DNA from: Hyphomicrobium sp.
GTDB taxonomy: Bacteria; Pseudomonadota; Alphaproteobacteria; Rhizobiales; Hyphomicrobiaceae
DNA: 64,000 bases
Direction of reading: 5' to 3'
NCBI GenBank assembly: GCA_002928515.1
Contig: PERI01000003.1
Location: 124,001-188,000, forward strand
Part shown: piece by piece, positions 14,390 through 44,702 of the stretch
Layout of the letters: the number at the start of each line of letters is the position of its first letter
Numbering within the stretch: position 1 is the first letter of the stretch
Translations under genes and position numbers: made by a program
Notes under the pieces: generated by a model
What the model was told of the DNA's origin: nothing
Seen by the model: the letters and a program-made list of their open reading frames with translations, nothing else
Databases searched by the model: none

Positions 14390-16879
14390 TCATTCCGCTG
14401 CCAGCGTCTCTAAGCTGGGTCGGTTATGGCCTAGATTGGCGTAGTTGGGTTTTAATTCTGCCGGATCGAAATGATCGACGGCAATGACGCGCGCGACCAG
14501 CGCTTCGGCTTCGCGCAGTTGCTCGCCTTCGGCGCTCGTGATGACGCCTTTGGAAACGGCGTCGGAGAACCAATCAACGCCATGATAGCGGCGCACAACG
14601 CCGTCGCGCACCGCCTTGTCGAGCTTCTTTTCTGCAGGCTCGGCGGCGATGACTTTTTCCAATGTCACTTCCAGCAATCCGGTTGGATCGTTGACATCCT
14701 TGGAAATGAAAATGTGTCGCGTCAGGCGATCGCGCGCATCACCTGGCTCCAACACATGACGCGCAACGGCGCGACCGAGTGCGTCGGATGCCGGTTTAAA
14801 ACGACGTCCCAGCGGGAATACCACCACACGCATCAGTGGCCGCACCCAAGTCACTGGGAAATTGTCGATGGTGCCAGTGATGGCTTCTTGGAATTTATAA
14901 AGCGCATTGCGCGCCGCCAACTCGACAATTTGCTCGTCACCCATGGGGCGCGCGTCGTCGTCGTAGCGTTTCAGAACGGCTGAGAGCATGTAGAGTTCCG
15001 ACAGTGCATCAGCGAGGCGGCCGGTAATCTTCTGCTTTGTTTTTAACCCGCCGCCGAGCATTGCAACCGTCAGGTCTGCGACGAAAGCAAATGAACGCGA
15101 GGCGCGGCCCAATTGCCGATACCATTGTGACATCATCTGTGCGCTGTCGGGTGCTGTTACGAACGCGCCGCCCGTCAGATTGTGGAAAAACCCGCCGGTG
15201 GCATTCGAAATCGAAAACGCGATGTGTCCGTTGAAAGCTTCTTCAAATTTATCGAGACCGCGACGTCGGTCGGTGTCTTGGGCCGACTGCACTTCGGTAT
15301 AGAGATAAGGATGCGAGCGCAGTGCACCTTGGGCAAATGTGATGAGGGTTCGGGTCAGGATGTTTGCACCTTCGACCGTAATGCCGACCGGCACCATTTG
15401 ATAAGCTGACTGCAAGTAGTTCGCTGGTCCATCGCAAATGGCACGGCCACCGTGAATGTCCATCGCATCGTTGACGGCGCGGCGCATACGCTCCGTCGTC
15501 TGGTATTTCATCAAGGCGGAGATGACCGACGGCTTTTCGCCACGGCTGACCATCGACGCGGTCATCGCGCGTGCGGCCTCGTTGACGTAGGCCGTCTCGA
15601 TGATGCGCACGAGGGGTTCTTCGACGCCTTCCATGCGCGATACGGGCAAGCCGAACTGCTTGCGCACACGCGCATAAGCGGACGTCACCCGCAGCATCAT
15701 CTTTGCGCCCGCTGTTGCCGACGACGGCAGCGATATCGCGCGTCCCGCCGATAGACATTCCATCAACATGCGCCAACCGTGACCGGCCATCTTGTCACCG
15801 CCGATGACCCAATCCATCGGGATAAAAACGTCCTTGCCCCAGTTGGGACCATTGGGGAACGCAGCACCCGACGGCAAATGGCGCCGCCCGATATTGATGC
15901 CGGGATGCGTCGCTGGAATGAGCGCCAGCGTAATGCCAACGTCTTCGCCTTTGCCCAGCAGATTTTCTGGATCGAACAAGCGAAACGCGAGGCCGACGAG
16001 CGTCGCTTCCGGCCCGAGCGTGATGTAGCGCTTGTCCCACGACAAACGAATGCCGAGCGTCTCGCGACCTTCGTGTGACCCTCGCGTTACGTATCCAATG
16101 TCGCGCATCGTGGCGGCATCAGACCCCGAGGTTGGGCCTGTCAATGAAAAGCACGGCACTTCGTCGCCCCGTGCCAAGCGCGGCAAGAAGTGGTGCTTTT
16201 GGTCGTCTGTGCCGTATTTCTCGATCAATTCTCCAGGGCCCAACGAATTCGGTACCATGACGATGGTCACGACATCGGGCGAGCGCGAGGCGATTTTGCC
16301 GAGAATGAGAGACTGCGCTTGCGCGGAAAATCCTAGACCTCCGTGCTCCTTGGAAATCAGCATGCCGAGGAAGCCGTGCTTCTTGACGAATGTCCAAATC
16401 TCTTCGGGGATTTCACGATTGGCATGGCGAATTTGCCAATCGTTGATCATGCGGCACAACTCGTCCGTCGGTCCGTCTAGGAATGCTTGCTCTTGGGCAG
16501 TCAATTGGATCGGCGGAATGGCGTGCAGCTTGTTCCAGTCGGGCGTGCCGGAAAACAATTCAGCATCGAAGCCAACCGTGCCCGCATCCAGCGCCTGGGC
16601 TTCGGTATCGGACACTTTCGGTAAAATTTTCTGGACCATGCCATAGACGCGCGCGACCACGAACTGACGCCGGATCGATGGCACGGATGCGAGCGCGAGC
16701 GCTGCAAACGGCAGCCAGGCGAGCAACCAAGGTAAAAACGGTCCGCCGCCCAGCTCAGTGCGCGACAGGAGCGTGAACACGCCGACCACCGCAGCCCACG
16801 CCCACAAGGGCGCCCGCATCATGCCGAGAGCCACCATGGCGCCAAGCAACACAATGAGAAGAACCGCGGTCGCCAACAT
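14390..16879 (-). CDS. fadE: Acyl-CoA dehydrogenase FadE
   Basis: An 829-residue protein of the FadE class, twice the size of ordinary acyl-CoA dehydrogenases, catalysing the first, FAD-dependent oxidation of acyl-CoA. Two to three hydrophobic segments at residues 1-70 would hold it to the inner membrane. Conserved FadE signatures are KHGFLGMLISKEHGGLGFSA, PCFSLTGPTSGSDAA and NDAMDIHGGRAICDGPANYL. The start is set by GGAGG six bases before the ATG at 16879; upstream in-frame starts would overlap that site. It heads the fadE-fadJ-fadI-cfa operon, with a palindrome 60 bases before its start codon. Confidence 0.93.
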   Translation of the reverse strand: MLATAVLLIVLLGAMVALGMMRAPLWAWAAVVGVFTLLSRTELGGGPFLPWLLAWLPFAALALASVPSIRRQFVVARVYGMVQKILPKVSDTEAQALDAGTVGFDAELFSGTPDWNKLHAIPPIQLTAQEQAFLDGPTDELCRMINDWQIRHANREIPEEIWTFVKKHGFLGMLISKEHGGLGFSAQAQSLILGKIASRSPDVVTIVMVPNSLGPGELIEKYGTDDQKHHFLPRLARGDEVPCFSLTGPTSGSDAATMRDIGYVTRGSHEGRETLGIRLSWDKRYITLGPEATLVGLAFRLFDPENLLGKGEDVGITLALIPATHPGINIGRRHLPSGAAFPNGPNWGKDVFIPMDWVIGGDKMAGHGWRMLMECLSAGRAISLPSSATAGAKMMLRVTSAYARVRKQFGLPVSRMEGVEEPLVRIIETAYVNEAARAMTASMVSRGEKPSVISALMKYQTTERMRRAVNDAMDIHGGRAICDGPANYLQSAYQMVPVGITVEGANILTRTLITFAQGALRSHPYLYTEVQSAQDTDRRRGLDKFEEAFNGHIAFSISNATGGFFHNLTGGAFVTAPDSAQMMSQWYRQLGRASRSFAFVADLTVAMLGGGLKTKQKITGRLADALSELYMLSAVLKRYDDDARPMGDEQIVELAARNALYKFQEAITGTIDNFPVTWVRPLMRVVVFPLGRRFKPASDALGRAVARHVLEPGDARDRLTRHIFISKDVNDPTGLLEVTLEKVIAAEPAEKKLDKAVRDGVVRRYHGVDWFSDAVSKGVITSAEGEQLREAEALVARVIAVDHFDPAELKPNYANLGHNRPSLETLAAE

Positions 16880-16939
16880 CGGAGCCTCCATCAATTGCCG
16901 ATCGGTCTGAAAAACCCGATCTAACACATTAAGTATATC

Positions 16940-17153: not shown

Positions 17154-18473
17154 TTATCGGCCACCATCACCGGGCAAAGGACTGCCATATAGTTCATTCA
17201 TGGTTGTGTCATACCAAGCCGCGCTTTCTAGGAACGTATCGCGACGGAGTTGTGCGCTTTCACCCGGCGCTGAAATGAATGGAGCGACTGGCTCTAGGTA
17301 AGGTGTCCCATCCTTCGATGCTGGTTTGTAATCGGCGCCAATCTTGGCACTGTTTTCGGGCGCAACCATCGACCAACATGTATTGCGATATGTGCCGGGA
17401 ACGCGCGGCTTACCTGAAATGTCAGCTAGAATATCGTCGGCCACGACCCCGGCTTGACTGATCGCGGTGAACGCCGACTTCGGCATGTCGGCAGACTTGG
17501 CGGCATCGCCCAACACATAGACATCCTTGATCAACGCCGATGTGAAATTGTGGGGATTAACGGGACACCAGTCGCCGTCCATGAGACCGGCCCTTCCCGC
17601 AATCGCACCAGCGCGCTGCGCGGGAATAATATTGGCGAGTGCGGCGCGTTCCTTGCGCCCCGTCTTGGTGACTACTTCGCCGGTTGATGCATCGACGCGA
17701 TCAACCGCGAAATCATCAATCTCGTTTGTCAAATTCAGCTCGACAATTCCTTTATAATATTCGGCGATGGCCTCCTCGAACACGGCTTGTTTCGAGAATG
17801 TTGATTTGGCGTCGAACACGATCAGCTTGGATTTCGGTTTCCGCGTTTTCAGAAAATGTCCAATCATGCACGCACGCTCGTAAGGTCCTGGCGGGCAGCG
17901 ATACGGATTATTAGGCACCGTCATCACGACCAATCCGCCATTGGATAGCGTCAGCAATTTCTTTTTAAGTAGCCACGTCTGCGGTCCGCTTAGCCATGCG
18001 TGCGGCATGATTTCAGCCGCTGCTTGAGAATATCCGATCACGCTATCGTATTTGATGTCGATGCCGGGCGCGACGACGAGACGGTCATAGGGAAGTGGGT
18101 TGGAAGCGTTGCCCAGCGTGACTGTTCTGGCTTTCGTATCAATGTCTTTTGCAATGTCCGATACGACTGTGATGCCGCGCGCCTTCACAGCAGCATAGCT
18201 ATGTGTCAGCGATTTAAATGAGCGGAACCCGCCGAGATACAAATTCGAATAAACGCACGTGGTGTAGGTTTGTTTGGGCTCGACGATGGTGACGTCAAGA
18301 GATGCATTCGCCGCCTTCAGCCGCGTTGCAACTGCCACACCCGCAAAACCGCCGCCAATGATCACGACTTTCGCTCGTCCCGCCGCTTGTGACGGCTTTG
18401 GTAGCATCGAAGCGGCTGTCAGTGCGCCAGCGCCCAACGCGAAACCATGAAACTGTCGACGTGTGACCGCCAC
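17154..18473 (-). CDS. fccB: Flavocytochrome c sulfide dehydrogenase flavoprotein subunit (FccB/SoxF-like)
   Basis: A 439-residue exported FAD enzyme that oxidises sulfide in the periplasm. It begins with a twin-arginine signal (TRRQFHGFALGAGALTAASM), then the FAD-binding loop VVIIGGGFAGVAVATRL. Redox cysteines expected for this family are seen in TYTTCVYSN and in NPYRCPPGPYERACM, and the C-terminal FCSD flavin-binding domain is present (VYVLGDAAKSADMPKSAF onward). I chose the GTG at 18473 because AGGGA precedes it at good spacing. It is divergent from soxYZ. No cytochrome subunit gene (fccA) is adjacent, so its electron acceptor is unknown. Confidence 0.9.
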   Translation of the reverse strand: MAVTRRQFHGFALGAGALTAASMLPKPSQAAGRAKVVIIGGGFAGVAVATRLKAANASLDVTIVEPKQTYTTCVYSNLYLGGFRSFKSLTHSYAAVKARGITVVSDIAKDIDTKARTVTLGNASNPLPYDRLVVAPGIDIKYDSVIGYSQAAAEIMPHAWLSGPQTWLLKKKLLTLSNGGLVVMTVPNNPYRCPPGPYERACMIGHFLKTRKPKSKLIVFDAKSTFSKQAVFEEAIAEYYKGIVELNLTNEIDDFAVDRVDASTGEVVTKTGRKERAALANIIPAQRAGAIAGRAGLMDGDWCPVNPHNFTSALIKDVYVLGDAAKSADMPKSAFTAISQAGVVADDILADISGKPRVPGTYRNTCWSMVAPENSAKIGADYKPASKDGTPYLEPVAPFISAPGESAQLRRDTFLESAAWYDTTMNELYGSPLPGDGGR

Positions 18474-18663
18474 GATTTTTTCCCTACACACTGCGCAACG
18501 CCCTAACGCTTTCGCGCTGCGCCATTTTTTCTTTAACTGACGATAGTCGCAATGTTAGACTTTTAAAGCGCGCTCTGTCAGGACATAAAACTATTGTAAC
18601 TGGAAGCGCTGCAAAGTCGTATCGTATAGTGCACTGCAAGAGAGGGCCAAACGGATATCTGCG

Positions 18664-19164
18664 ATGGCCGATAGTGTTCATATTTCCATACTCAACCGTC
18701 GAAGTTTCATTTTGGCGACATTGGGTGCTGCGTGCTCAGCACAGTTATTCGCTTCGAGCCGGGCTTTTGCCGATGCCGGTGCGGTACTCCCCTTTGAACG
18801 CACGGCTCATTTCGAAGAAGCTCTGCAAAAATTTCTCACCGGTGTCACGCCGGTCGAGGGTTTGATTGCCGTCGATCTCCCGGAAATCGCTGAGAACGGC
18901 AACTTTGTGCCGATCACGATTGTGGCCGAAAGTCCGATGACGGACGCCGACCATGTCCGCAAGATCCACATTCTCTCCAGCGGCAATCCTGTGGCGTCGG
19001 TTGCCACCTTTCGCTTATCTCCGCTGAACGGCACCGCGCGGGTACAAAGCCGCATGCGTTTGGCGCGCAGCCAGGACGTCATCGTGTTGGCTGAAATGTC
19101 CACCGGCGTGCTCGCCATCGCAACCATGACCGTCAAAGTCACCATCGGCGGTTGCCAGAGCTAG
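18664..19164 (+). CDS. soxY: Sulfur carrier protein SoxY
   Basis: A 166-residue protein exported by a twin-arginine signal (LNRRSFILATLGAAC). The mature domain ends in VKVTIGGCQS; Cys164 is the sulfur-carrying residue on the C-terminal swinging arm, to which thiosulfate or sulfide sulfur is attached. Most SoxY proteins end GGCGG; here the last two residues are Gln-Ser. SoxY works as a heterodimer with SoxZ, encoded ten bases downstream. It is divergent from the sulfide dehydrogenase gene across a 190-bp gap. No soxAX, soxB or soxCD is present in the window. Confidence 0.93.
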   Translation: MADSVHISILNRRSFILATLGAACSAQLFASSRAFADAGAVLPFERTAHFEEALQKFLTGVTPVEGLIAVDLPEIAENGNFVPITIVAESPMTDADHVRKIHILSSGNPVASVATFRLSPLNGTARVQSRMRLARSQDVIVLAEMSTGVLAIATMTVKVTIGGCQS

Positions 19165-19174
19165 AGGAACGGCC

Positions 19175-19498
19175 ATGGCCAACAATCCGCGCATCAAATT
19201 ACCCGACAGCGTAAAGGCCGGCGATATCATCGAGGTCAAAACGCTGATTACGCATGTCATGGAGACCGGCCATCGCAAGGATCGCGACGGCAATGCCATT
19301 GAGCGCAACATCATCAATACCTTTGTTGCAAAGTTTGGCGATGCGGAAGTGTTTCGCGCTGAACTGGGTCCAGGTATTTCGGCTAATCCCTATATTTCAT
19401 TTCAATTGCGCGTGCCGGGTCCAGGCACGTTCGAGTTTGCTTGGATCGACGACCAGGGCGTTAAAGTCGTCGAGACCACACCACTCAACGTTGCGTAA
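19175..19498 (+). CDS. soxZ: Sulfur carrier partner SoxZ
   Basis: A 107-residue protein with an immunoglobulin-like beta-sandwich. It has the classic SoxZ pattern: PRIKLPDSVKAGDIIEVKTLI, HVMETGHRKDRDG, then NPYISFQLRVPGPGTFEFAW. It has no signal peptide and is expected to be carried to the periplasm with SoxY through the Tat system. It follows soxY by ten bases and converges on cimA. The pair forms the sulfur-binding core of the Sox pathway. Confidence 0.94.
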   Translation: MANNPRIKLPDSVKAGDIIEVKTLITHVMETGHRKDRDGNAIERNIINTFVAKFGDAEVFRAELGPGISANPYISFQLRVPGPGTFEFAWIDDQGVKVVETTPLNVA

Positions 19499-37486: not shown

Positions 37487-37777
37487 CGTTTACTCCCTCC
37501 GCCCGGTCTGCACGTCTGATCCATGGGGATTGACGAACTGTGGGCCGTCACAGGACCACGCGATGATGTGTGCCATCATCATCCGTAGTCAGTTACGTTT
37601 CGCCCATTCGCCCGGAATCGGCGCTTAACGCGGCGGACCGTCGCATTACATGTGAGCGCTTGCAAGTGCTCGCGTGAGCCATGCTGGTAAGCCGTGCTCT
37701 TGCAGTCTGCGACACCTTTGCATTACACGTACAAAGGTGCGGCTGCGAACCGTCATTCGTTTGATAAAATCAGGATC

Positions 37778-38011
37778 ATGGCCGACCGTACGCTCGACAC
37801 ATCGGGGCTTTCCTGCCCCATCCCCATTCTAAAGGCCAAAAAGGCTTTGGGTGAAATGGCCGTTGGATCGGTGCTGGAAGTGATTGCGACAGACCCAGCC
37901 GCGCCGAATGATTTTATCGCGTTCTGTAAGGCGACAGGGCACGCACTGCTCGATAACGGCACGCGCGAAGGCTGTTACTGGTTTCATATTCAGCGCGCAC
38001 AGACCTCCTGA
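37778..38011 (+). CDS. tusA: TusA-family sulfur carrier protein
   Basis: A 77-residue protein with the TusA/SirA signature LDTSGLSCPIPILKAKKAL; Cys13 in the CPxP motif accepts persulfide sulfur. TusA delivers sulfur for tRNA thiolation and, in sulfur oxidisers, to Dsr or Hdr-like systems. The ATG at 37778 has AGGA at good spacing, and the extra 28 codons before it are not conserved. It sits upstream of tRNA-Val, with a 291-bp gap behind it in which I see no gene. A link to the DsrE-like gene is suggested by context only. Confidence 0.92.
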   Translation: MADRTLDTSGLSCPIPILKAKKALGEMAVGSVLEVIATDPAAPNDFIAFCKATGHALLDNGTREGCYWFHIQRAQTS

Positions 38012-40883: not shown

Positions 40884-42023
40884 ATGGCGTATTTTGCCTC
40901 GCGCATCTGCTGCCGCGAAAGGTTTAATCTCGTGCGCGATCTCATGAGCCAATCTCCCGCAGTTTCGCTGGCACTTGGCGGTTTCGTTTTGGGTTTGGCT
41001 TTTGGCTGGCTCGCCCGCGCGAGCAATTTTTGCGTCATGGGAGCTGTCAGCGATTGGCGCATATCAGGCGATTGCGGTCGCTTGGGCGCTGCAGCTCTCG
41101 CGGCTGCAACTGCTATGATTGGCGCGCAGAGTTTGGATGCAGCAGGCATCGTCGATCTGTCGCGATCTATGTATGTCGCGCCTCACATCAATTGGGCGGC
41201 AAGTATTTTTGGCGGTTTGATTTTTGGCTTCGGCATGGTGTTTGCGGGCGGGTGCCCAAGCCGATCGTTGGTGCGCGCCGGCGGTGGTGATTTTCGTGCG
41301 TTGGTCACGGCTTTGGTGATGGCTGTCGCGGCGCTCGCGACTGTCAGTGGCATTCTGGGACCGGCACGCAGCTCTTTCGAAGCTGCCACGGCCATCGACC
41401 TGACGACCTATCATTTACCGTCGCAGGCGCTTCCTGCCGTCCTCGCATCGTTTAATTTTGATCCTTCGATTATGCGTTGGATGGCTTTGGCCATCATCGC
41501 TGGTCCGCTACTGATGTTTGCGATTTATCGTGGACGTATCCTGCGACAACCCATGCTTCTGATTGCTGGCCTCGGTGTCGGCGTGATCGTGACGGCAGGG
41601 TGGGCTATGACTGGCCTAGTCAGCGATGATATGGCGGTGCGTGTCATTGCCCCATCGTCTTTGAGTTTCGTGCGCCCTGTCGCCGACGCCATCGATTGGC
41701 TCGAACGCTCGACTGCATTAGGATTGCCGGGGTTCGGCGCGGCTTCCGTTTTTGGCGTTCTGGTTGGAAGTGCACTCGCGTCGGTCGCGTCACAGTCTCT
41801 AAGGTTCACCGGATTTAGCGATGGCGCGGATTTCCGGCGGCATCTGTTTGGTGCTGTCGCTATGGGCGTTGGCGGCATTCTCGGATTAGGCTGCACCATC
41901 GGCCAAGGTGTAACGGGCCTCTCAACCCTAGCTGTGCAATCTTTTCTGACTGCGGCTGCGATTATTCTGGGGGCAGTGTTCGGGCTTGCCCGCTTACAAC
42001 GGTCGCTCGATCTCGACGACTGA
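40884..42023 (+). CDS. YeeE/YedE-family (thiosulfate transporter TsuA-like) membrane protein
   Basis: A 379-residue inner-membrane protein with about nine or ten helices. It has the conserved cysteines of the family: RASNFCVMGAVSDW (first), FAGGCPSRSLVRAGGG (second) and GLGCTIGQGVTGLS (third), which line the sulfur path in TsuA, a thiosulfate importer. Here the C-terminal signature GQGVTG matches well. The start could be the ATG at 40884 or 40944; neither has a strong ribosome site. It converges on the di-heme gene. It fits the sulfur theme of the region, but no co-transcribed TusA-like gene follows it. Confidence 0.86.
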   Translation: MAYFASRICCRERFNLVRDLMSQSPAVSLALGGFVLGLAFGWLARASNFCVMGAVSDWRISGDCGRLGAAALAAATAMIGAQSLDAAGIVDLSRSMYVAPHINWAASIFGGLIFGFGMVFAGGCPSRSLVRAGGGDFRALVTALVMAVAALATVSGILGPARSSFEAATAIDLTTYHLPSQALPAVLASFNFDPSIMRWMALAIIAGPLLMFAIYRGRILRQPMLLIAGLGVGVIVTAGWAMTGLVSDDMAVRVIAPSSLSFVRPVADAIDWLERSTALGLPGFGAASVFGVLVGSALASVASQSLRFTGFSDGADFRRHLFGAVAMGVGGILGLGCTIGQGVTGLSTLAVQSFLTAAAIILGAVFGLARLQRSLDLDD

Positions 42024-42041: not shown

Positions 42042-44450
42042 TCAGCCCCCGCTAATGACAAGCACGGCACGGCCGTCGCGTAGCGCTCGCCCTGGTACGG
42101 TTCGCGTACGCTGCTCGACGCGCTCGCCTGCGGCGCGACGGCGGCGCACAGCGTCGGAGCGTGCAGCGCGTGCACGATCGGCTTTGAGTGGATCGGCACG
42201 CAATTCAGCATCCGTTGCCAGCGTGTCGCGAATAAAAACTTCCCAGTTGCCGAGCAACGTAAATCGCTGACGCTCGAAATCATGTTCTATGCCCATGGGT
42301 GGCTCGGGCGACGTCGAGCAGCGCGCCAGTAGCGTTTCTGCGACGCCGCTTTTGAAGCGCAACTGATACGGCGCGGTTGGAGCTGGAATGCTGACAGCTT
42401 TACCCGCGACCAACAGGTTGTCGGGCTCGAAATCGTTTGGAAACAATACAGTGGCTTTGCGATCCTCATCGACGCTGATGATCGTCAGATAGCAATCCGT
42501 GTCGGCTTCGGCTTTGATGCCAACAATGTCACCTGCTGCCGGTCGTGCAGCATCAAGCCAAACACTCAAACCAATTTCAGTTTGGACATCGCGCAAGAAA
42601 CCGCCGGATTGGGGCCCTGAGAGCGTATTTGGGGCATCCATACTTTTGATGAAGGTGAACAAGCGCTCCAGATCGCTGCGTGGGAGCACACCATGTTGCA
42701 ATCTTCGAGCAAGCGGCGCTGCAGGCCCGGATGCTGCCGATAACCATGCGAGAAAGGCATCTCTCGGCAGACCGATTTCTGCCAGTGCTGCGTCGAAGCC
42801 TGAAGCCCGTTGATAGCGCCGCGCGAGTGCTGTGACTAATTCGTCTCCACCAATGCGTAAGTTTGGATCGACGCCTGCTGCGCGCTGCGCATTTTGATAG
42901 CGCTCGTTATCTCCACTGATCAGGAGCGCCATTTCGCTGTCACTTGGAAAGTAAGGCAACGCTGATGTGCGCAAATCATTCGCCATCACCGAAGGCTCCA
43001 AGATCGCATACGTTCTGAATTGATCCTTCAAGCCTTGGATGGCATCGACATGACATGCAAAGCATTGGACGCCAACCGTGGTACCTGGCTCGTTCACCCC
43101 CGTTTGATCTCCGGTAAATGGCTTTTCGATCCCGGCCAACACGCGATCCAAACGATTTCCAGAAGCGTCGAAGACTGCAAACGCTTGAAAGCCATTCGGT
43201 AGCGTAAAAATCGTGCGCACTTGGTCTGGCTTGAACGGCGTCTTTGAAGTCGGCGTAGCTTTTGGACCATGAGGCCGCGCAAAAATATCTTGCTCATCCT
43301 TGCTGGTGGCAAAATCGTAGATCAACCAAAACCCACCCACGGACCCGGCATGTCGTTCGGCCAAGCGATTTCCGCGCGTCACGGCGCTGTTGCGAATTGC
43401 TGCGCGACGGACGGTGGCGTTGCGGACATTTTGTGCGATATCGACGCCGTTCAATTTGGCGAGAGCGGTGAGCGTCGTCGGCAAGCGCAAAAGATCATAA
43501 TACATCGGCGCTTGTGACGCTGCAGCCGTCAACCAGTCGCCATTCATGACCGGTCGCGTCGTGCCCGCGCGCACTTGAACATCTTCTGGCACAGGATTGG
43601 GCAGCACATCGGGATACTTCCGCTGTAATTGCTCCCAATGCTCAGCGACCCAACCGAGTTCGGCCAATCTGAACGCATAGAGTGTGCCGTCGGTATCGAG
43701 CGCAGTCAGTGCGGCATGTTCGGGTGCCCACGACAGACTATTCAATAGTTTTGTCAAAGCTTGCCGGTACCCTGACAATTCTTCGCCACTGGCACACCCA
43801 TTGTGCAGATGCGCGAGCGAAATAAATCGCAAATCTTTCACGCCGTCGCGCTCTAGTCTCTGAGCTTCGCGAACCAACGCTTCGATCATTTCGTTGGTCA
43901 CTGATTTACGCGAGGGGCACGCCTGAACTGTTGGGCCGAGATCGGTGATCCATTCACGCACCGCTTGAATTTCTTCGGGTTGTGGTTCGCTGCGCTCAGT
44001 TCCAGCCTCATAGACATCGAGTGGCGCGTGGCGCGTCACCATCACATCATAGAGGCGCGAAGCATCCGGCAGTCCTGGGGTCACCAGAACCGGATTGCGT
44101 GCCAACTCATTGAGCGCAAGAATATTTGAAACTTGCCCAGAGGCTAGAGGGCGAACGGTCTTGCCTGTTTGATGGCAGCGCGCGCAATGATTCTCTAATG
44201 CGAAATAGGCTTTAGCCGCGCGTGGATCATCGGGACGCGGCGGAACGCTGATTTGGGTTGTCGGCAGCAGTTGAGAACTCGGACTGGCCGCAGGTGCAGT
44301 CGCGGGTTGATTGGCGGATTGTGTGGGCGAAAATTGCGGGGTTGCGGCTGGCGTCTGCGCCAATCCTGGCGTGCCAACGGCCACTAACAAAACAGCCATT
44401 GCAACTTTTAGTCGCCAAGCCCCTGTTTCCCACGACCCCTTAACGTGCAT
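42042..44450 (-). CDS. Exported di-heme cytochrome c-like protein with DUF4384
   Basis: An 802-residue exported protein. After a signal peptide (about 13-32, ending in VGTPGLAQ) and a Pro/Ala/Ser-rich linker come a heme-binding CARCH motif (89-93), a long unfamiliar middle region and a second CFACH motif (463-467). About residues 635-730 form a DUF4384 domain (VGIKAEADTDCYLTIISVDED, then a hydrophobic strand pair), followed by an Arg-rich tail. The start at 44450 is set by GAGGA. It is divergent from the TPP-enzyme gene by 252 bp. Two c-hemes suggest periplasmic electron transfer; the partner and substrate are not evident. Confidence 0.72.
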   Translation of the reverse strand: MHVKGSWETGAWRLKVAMAVLLVAVGTPGLAQTPAATPQFSPTQSANQPATAPAASPSSQLLPTTQISVPPRPDDPRAAKAYFALENHCARCHQTGKTVRPLASGQVSNILALNELARNPVLVTPGLPDASRLYDVMVTRHAPLDVYEAGTERSEPQPEEIQAVREWITDLGPTVQACPSRKSVTNEMIEALVREAQRLERDGVKDLRFISLAHLHNGCASGEELSGYRQALTKLLNSLSWAPEHAALTALDTDGTLYAFRLAELGWVAEHWEQLQRKYPDVLPNPVPEDVQVRAGTTRPVMNGDWLTAAASQAPMYYDLLRLPTTLTALAKLNGVDIAQNVRNATVRRAAIRNSAVTRGNRLAERHAGSVGGFWLIYDFATSKDEQDIFARPHGPKATPTSKTPFKPDQVRTIFTLPNGFQAFAVFDASGNRLDRVLAGIEKPFTGDQTGVNEPGTTVGVQCFACHVDAIQGLKDQFRTYAILEPSVMANDLRTSALPYFPSDSEMALLISGDNERYQNAQRAAGVDPNLRIGGDELVTALARRYQRASGFDAALAEIGLPRDAFLAWLSAASGPAAPLARRLQHGVLPRSDLERLFTFIKSMDAPNTLSGPQSGGFLRDVQTEIGLSVWLDAARPAAGDIVGIKAEADTDCYLTIISVDEDRKATVLFPNDFEPDNLLVAGKAVSIPAPTAPYQLRFKSGVAETLLARCSTSPEPPMGIEHDFERQRFTLLGNWEVFIRDTLATDAELRADPLKADRARAARSDAVRRRRAAGERVEQRTRTVPGRALRDGRAVLVISGG

Positions 44451-44702
44451 TCCAATCCTCGTGACGAGCCCCAAAGCGCAATTCAAAGTCTGCGCGTTGC
44501 GGACCATAATGGGCGAAGGTGTCTAAGCCTAGACGGCTATGCTTGGTCGGACATCTTGGTTGTAAAGACTGATGTCGGGTGGATACGGTGTGTCGATCGT
44601 GAGAACTAACCCAATTCAAGTATTCTGCTTTCGCCATCGTGCGAAAGGCTTTTAGTGTGTGGCTCGAGCCGATGTCCTCTCCAAAGTCAAGAACCTCAAG
44701 CC

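Follow-up and report, generated by a model that had tools for sequence, protein, structure and literature searches.

A conserved pair of sulfide dehydrogenase flavoprotein and SoxYZ genes without SoxB in Hyphomicrobium

The genes soxY and soxZ are often taken as a sign of thiosulfate oxidation. In a 64,000-nucleotide stretch of a Hyphomicrobium genome (hereafter the window; bases 124001-188000 of contig C3), they lie next to the gene for a flavoprotein of the flavocytochrome c sulfide dehydrogenase (FCSD) type. What does a sulfur carrier do beside a sulfide dehydrogenase in a genome where SoxB gave no match over cut-off? A sequence-only reading of the window had suggested a minimal module that captures sulfide and hands the sulfur on without releasing sulfate. 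We found that the FCSD-SoxYZ pair is real, conserved, under purifying selection, and independent of SoxB. As for its role, we think it probable, if only just, that this island is a stand-alone periplasmic sulfide-handling module, in which FCSD would load Cys164 of SoxY and SoxYZ would pass the sulfur on, a biochemistry read from genes and their neighborhoods.

The genome (G000; 2.92 Mb, 20 contigs, 99.99% complete) was compared with a genus set (n = 22), a family set (n = 103), and a named set of 77 FCSD loci. SoxB, SoxA, and SoxC were counted as present when a profile match exceeded the model cut-off. The closest named relatives of the FCSD gene were metagenome-assembled genomes (MAGs) and one strain titled Hyphomicrobium, with 54-71% identity.

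The FCSD-SoxYZ island

The flavoprotein and soxYZ had been described as divergent neighbors, and this was confirmed, with domain matches over cut-off. The island consists of the following features:

17154..18491, minus strand: FCSD flavoprotein (FccB/SoxF type), with a twin-arginine-like N-terminus by eye and the cysteine pair C199 and C372
18492..18663, no strand: divergent intergenic region between FCSD and SoxY, 172 bp between the start codons
18575-18610, intergenic: conserved element GTCAGGA...TTGTAAC, from the alignment of genus loci
18664..19164, plus strand: SoxY (PF13501, 108.6 bits), with a twin-arginine-like N-terminus by eye and the carrier C164
19175..19498, plus strand: SoxZ (PF08770, 97 bits; TIGR04490, 98.7 against a cut-off of 76), no signal peptide by eye

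Both Pfam domains of FCSD scored over cut-off (FCSD_central at 136.5 bits and FCSD-flav_bind at 53.9 bits), and its best solved-structure matches were FCSD flavin subunits: 5n1t (341 bits), 3vrd, and 1fcd. C199 and C372, which we take to be the active-site cysteine pair, align to cysteines in these solved chains and are kept in 84/84 and 82/82 non-outgroup rows with the column filled. Selenocysteine was considered for this family, prompted by an in-frame TGA in several matches, and rejected after a check of 13 loci (L121-L133). A single internal stop was seen, at the C-terminal end, and the TGA codons are therefore ordinary stop codons.

The C-terminal tail of SoxY reads TIGGCQS –with C164 inside– and not GGCGG. 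Against TIGR04488 (SoxY_true_GGCGG) the protein reached 124.8 bits, 0.2 below the cut-off of 125; against the AACIE arm protein model TIGR04487 it reached 110.3 bits, under the cut-off of 172, and it has no AACIE tail. SoxY and SoxZ are separate genes and scored 68.1 and 37.3 bits with the fused-carrier model TIGR04557, under its cut-off of 140.

The divergent promoter region is common to FCSD and SoxYZ. A strict pattern for the intergenic element matched 18/21 genus loci. The element matrix scored 24.5 at this locus, and the runner-up in the scanned DNA of the genome scored 15.1. A TATA-like stretch follows 24 bp after the element, here and in several genus loci, and a sigma-70 scan gave one match, on the minus strand.

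Conservation of the pair and the sulfur genes around it

At the genus level, FCSD was present in 22/22 genomes (the G061 copy is a 105-residue fragment), and SoxY was divergent from it in 21/21 readable ones, at a spacing of 155-305 bp. SoxB was over cut-off in three of the 22 (G041, G044, and G052), and SoxA in the same three, with ten more genomes displaying weak sub-cut-off matches. Nonsynonymous divergence (dN) was lower than synonymous divergence (dS) for FCSD, SoxY, and SoxZ in 8/8 pairs of related genus genomes; for G043-G056, the dN/dS values were 0.02/0.157, 0.033/0.16, and 0.036/0.252, respectively.

At the family level, at least 66 of the 103 genomes carry the divergent pair, a lower bound counted on the stretches read. 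SoxB over cut-off was lacking in 45 of these 66, and 44 of the 45 SoxB-less carriers retain the SoxY cysteine. The sequence-only reading had proposed that a linkage conserved without the other genes would support a module, and such a linkage is what genus and family present. With at least 45 of 66 carriers of FCSD-linked SoxYZ lacking SoxB over cut-off, soxYZ alone would be a misleading marker for thiosulfate oxidation. In L181 (G004), the island SoxY ends in GGFSG and has apparently lost the arm cysteine; this MAG is 83% complete, and a sequence error is possible.

Among the 77 named loci, SoxY lay in the locus in 62 and within 1.5 kb of FCSD in 45. SoxB was in none of these 45 loci, versus 14 of the 17 with a more distant SoxY. 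We distinguished three neighborhood types. Type A is the divergent FCSD / SoxYZ arrangement, in which the tail is of GGC type and the open reading frames (ORFs) drawn include no cytochrome gene, as seen in ten Hyphomicrobium-titled loci (L013-L022); exceptions exist in certain other genera, where FCSD is followed by a heme ORF. Type B, found in rhizobia and rhodobacters, comprises FCSD-SoxX-SoxY-SoxZ-SoxA cassettes whose SoxY has an [A/P]AC tail, often together with an FccA-type gene. Type C comprises full soxYZ-B-C-D-FccA-FCSD clusters with a GGCGG tail. Several type B loci (L040, L049, L061, L080, L089, and others) also hold a xanthine-dehydrogenase-like gene, and SoxB is missing from them. 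In the FCSD tree (100 rows, quick build, rows shorter than 150 aa excluded, one island row per genome), a branch of SH-aLRT 100 divides the family island-type rows from those of types B and C.

The flanks are lipid and amino acid genes, as had been read from the window: those on one side encode an acyl-CoA dehydrogenase and a FadB-type protein, and those on the other encode a LeuA/HMGL-like synthase and an acetyltransferase. Of the 20 genus loci drawn, 19 have the acyl-CoA dehydrogenase next after FCSD (L107 differs):

14390..16927, minus strand: acyl-CoA dehydrogenase, a syntenic island flank in Hyphomicrobium, presumed to have no share in the function

The absence of the other Sox genes and of the FccA cytochrome, claimed for the window, was then followed through the genome. 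No SoxB was over cut-off, the best match having 28.8 bits versus 550, and the same model exceeded its cut-off in 48/103 family genomes. The profile search for SoxA gave no match in this genome, where SoxX was not searched for; as a positive control, the SoxA model was over cut-off in 49/103 family genomes, so the search works. No match to the FccA-type profile, which was built from 20 of 30 listed FCSD-adjacent cytochromes, was obtained in the genome at E 0.001, a result that a divergent cytochrome could escape. The profile matches 19/22 genus genomes, where most matches look like generic cytochromes; in G042 and G050, the match adjoins a second FCSD. Among the window ORFs beside FCSD-SoxYZ, none has a CxxCH motif. 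The case that had been named as refuting, a complete sox operon including a soxYZ of its own, was looked for genome-wide and not found, there being neither SoxB nor SoxA.

The claimed absence did not extend to SoxCD outside the window. SoxC reached 597 bits versus a cut-off of 420 at G000:C3:194269-195501. This gene is 51 kb away from the island and about 6.3 kb past the end of the window, and next to it are a SoxD-like heme protein (so named by position and heme motif only) and a fused SoxYZ. Just past the window end on the same contig (L006:6257-13037), a TonB-type receptor, a DUF1775/PCuAC copper chaperone, the fused SoxYZ, SoxC, and the SoxD-like gene stand in a row: a SoxCD locus next to copper genes, without SoxB. 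The genome holds five SoxY-domain genes, and the four besides the island SoxY are fused SoxYZ proteins, all over the TIGR04557 cut-off. Thus, the proposal of a minimal module stands as to the linkage conserved without SoxB, and it falls short in that SoxCD and four further fused carriers make the sulfur economy of this genome not minimal. Fused SoxYZ-like carriers lie near a quinoprotein relay metallohydrolase and a pyrroloquinoline quinone (PQQ) alcohol dehydrogenase (L008:8328-11505 and L009:5725-10647).

Moreover, the genome encodes a persulfide dioxygenase and a sulfurtransferase-SQR fusion. These are found with a TauE-like gene at L012:178-3548 and G000:C2:1960-2845. Two YeeE-like pieces of half size precede them, and the match to the second piece contains one stop codon. 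A SorA/SorT-like protein stayed below cut-off. sHdrB1 had no match in this genome and was present in 2/22 genus genomes; sHdr was therefore rejected as a sulfur sink here, since sHdrB1 was not found.

A possible sulfur relay and its rivals

Passages of the review PMC9774590 describe known FCSD systems as oxidizing sulfide to polysulfide, and passages of PMC5336275 describe the SoxY arm cysteine as a carrier of sulfane sulfur. For H. denitrificans, parts of PMC11582611 and PMC12423496 present SoxT1A as the importer of SoxY-bound sulfane sulfur. On these grounds, the simplest account of the pair has SoxYZ take up the sulfur. FCSD in the stand-alone module would convert H2S, whether external or made by the cell itself, into zero-valent sulfur, and this would be placed on Cys164 of SoxY as a persulfide and not freed as polysulfide. 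For the electrons, the default acceptor would be a general cytochrome c, since no dedicated FccA turned up. Next, SoxYZ would deliver the sulfur to the cytoplasm, and in the present genome two candidates encoded in the window may serve as the route:

37694..38011, plus strand: TusA sulfur transferase (PF01206, 77.9 bits), candidate cytoplasmic acceptor
40884..42023, plus strand: YeeE/SoxT1A-like transporter (PF04143, 185.8 bits), candidate importer

From there, the sulfur might reach the persulfide dioxygenase encoded elsewhere in the genome. Passing sulfur on without sulfate release, as the sequence-only reading had it, is compatible with the missing SoxB. The SoxT1A-like protein is 49% identical to the transporter adjoining the shdr cluster of G041, and its C50, C124, and C337 align with cysteines of that transporter. 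Convergent with it, at window positions 42042-44507, lies an 821-aa DUF4384 protein with two CxxCH motifs.

The SoxY tail may tell which partners the carrier has. Fifteen family genomes have a SoxB locus that lacks SoxYZ within the stretch read (two of these stretches are short contigs, L206 of 6.5 kb and L208 of 3.2 kb), and in 15/15 the island SoxY ends in GGCGG; G001 and G005, among the 15, also carry a second SoxB with SoxYZ. In the remaining 51 island genomes, GGCGG was found in three (G002, G007, and G097) and another tail in 48. A Fisher test of the tail association, which ignores relatedness, gave 3.0e-9 for any SoxB and 3.0e-12 for a SoxYZ-less SoxB. On the tree, the tail changes at least four times and the state of a SoxYZ-less SoxB five times. 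This fits a view in which the residues after the SoxY cysteine are kept for SoxB and SoxXA and are dispensable for FCSD; they would be free to change because SoxB and SoxXA need not bind the tail. To judge from these loci, the pair is not self-sufficient in every genome: in some relatives, a separate SoxA-SoxB locus probably draws on the island SoxYZ as well. That SoxYZ has a role outside thiosulfate oxidation as the dedicated periplasmic sulfur acceptor of FCSD, family-wide among these methylotroph relatives, with a tail freed from the GGCGG constraint where SoxB is independent of it, we hold tentatively, as a proposal that falls a little short of probable.

Several observations weigh against these proposals. 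The tree-aware pair test on well-supported branches found three pairs, none opposite, and was not significant; without three incomplete genomes, one pair was left. With few independent changes behind it, the tail association is thus a lead and not a proof. SoxB occurs together with a changed island tail in G041, G044, G052, G063, and G069, in each of which a GGCGG SoxYZ accompanies SoxB. Just 10/22 genus genomes had a SoxT-like protein above 160 bits, so import via SoxT is not general and other sinks must exist, perhaps SoxCD; besides, TusA and SoxT are 18-23 kb from the island and unlinked to it. In the FCSD tree, one family row, that of G016, which has no SoxY nearby, is placed across the split from the island-type rows. 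Finally, in G046, G047, and G054, a diheme cytochrome c that the FccA-type profile matched twice lies just past the island SoxZ, an exception to type A. It is a candidate, and some relatives may have in it a linked electron acceptor:

G046:C3:2229381-2229947: diheme cytochrome c beyond SoxZ, FccA-type profile
G047:C5:155960-156478: diheme cytochrome c beyond SoxZ, FccA-type profile
G054:C4:339176-339742: diheme cytochrome c beyond SoxZ, FccA-type profile

A further point against the stand-alone module is that SoxCD could be the true partner of the island. The island SoxYZ would then be the carrier of a scattered Sox variant for the SoxCD 51 kb away, with a SoxF-like FCSD keeping SoxYZ active and SoxCD oxidizing the sulfur in the periplasm, with no import. 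SoxC is over cut-off in this genome, with the SoxD-like heme protein adjoining, and in 19/22 genus genomes (missing in G050, G058, and G059), and a title cited in PMC5336275 –the title being what that source gives– has a soxF-encoded monomeric flavoprotein of Chlorobaculum tepidum stimulate thiosulfate oxidation. Against this, SoxC over cut-off is missing in 6/8 g10 and 6/6 g14 genomes that keep the island, and sulfate release would need SoxB, which is not present. The three SoxB-less SoxC loci read showed a fused SoxYZ by SoxC in this genome and in G042, and none in G044. We regard this alternative as unlikely, yet as one to be taken seriously. The 15 genomes with a SoxYZ-less SoxB locus and a GGCGG island tail would also suit a split Sox system, in which the pair persists to supply SoxYZ to a SoxA-SoxB encoded elsewhere and would be without a function once SoxB is lost; in 14 of these loci SoxA adjoins SoxB or, for G009/G008, had no match in the stretch. 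Three findings make this reading improbable: dN is lower than dS in the Hyphomicrobium pairs, almost all of which lack SoxB; the genus retains the FCSD-SoxYZ pair almost universally; and the cysteine persists in all SoxB-less carriers but one.

Selection speaks likewise against a decaying relic of a full Sox cluster, kept by chance. The variable post-cysteine residues of SoxY in Hyphomicrobium would agree with decay, but dN below dS, the conserved synteny and intergenic element, and the conserved catalytic cysteines make it very improbable. Equally doubtful is that the module clears H2S from the periplasmic methanethiol oxidase MtoX in dimethylsulfide and methanethiol metabolism. The SBP56 family is over cut-off in 10/22 genus genomes, and parts of PMC12423496 discuss MtoX of H. 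denitrificans, but SBP56 had no match in the other 12 or in the genome studied here. For this genome, the methanethiol link was rejected on that search, a verdict that holds unless another methanethiol oxidase exists.

We return to the stand-alone sulfide module. If the relay is true, it explains where FCSD deposits its sulfur and how methylotrophs without a Sox pathway capture sulfide in the periplasm, and it ties the SoxY tail to its enzyme partners in a way that can be tested. If the family-wide proposal is true, the C-terminal SoxY motif alone would tell from sequence whether a SoxYZ serves SoxB.

Comparison with known systems

FCSD-SoxYZ is a new variant of known parts and not a new kind of system. 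Our literature search, thin on subscription papers, found no FCSD-SoxYZ pair without SoxB described for the family, and we do not claim its absence from print. The truncated Sox system with sHdr of H. denitrificans is similar in that SoxT1A imports SoxYZ-bound sulfane sulfur, according to parts of PMC11582611, PMC12423496, and PMC10451225, and a SoxT1A-like transporter lies in the window. It differs in that our genome has no SoxA, SoxB, or sHdrB1 match. The word 'flavocytochrome' is absent from the main text of these three papers.

The AACIE (TIGR04487) cassettes of rhizobia and rhodobacters also have FCSD beside SoxYZ in a locus without SoxB; unlike the island, they include cytochrome genes (FccA-type, SoxX, and SoxA), and their tail is [A/P]AC. 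With the SoxYZ of thiosulfate-oxidizing Sox systems, the island shares the SoxY and SoxZ Pfam families and a SoxZ over the NCBIfam cut-off; it differs in its SoxY, which is under the TIGR04488 cut-off with a GGCQS tail, and in the genome, which is without SoxB or SoxA. SoxF of complete sox clusters belongs to the same family, being a sox-associated FCSD flavoprotein, but there SoxY lies 1.8-6.9 kb from FCSD, 14/17 such loci have SoxB, and the FCSDs fall outside the island clade. FccAB, in turn, shares the flavoprotein families, both active-site cysteines, and a full-length similarity to the solved FccB chains. The island differs from it in having no adjacent cytochrome gene and no FccA-profile match in its genome, and its neighbor is SoxYZ.

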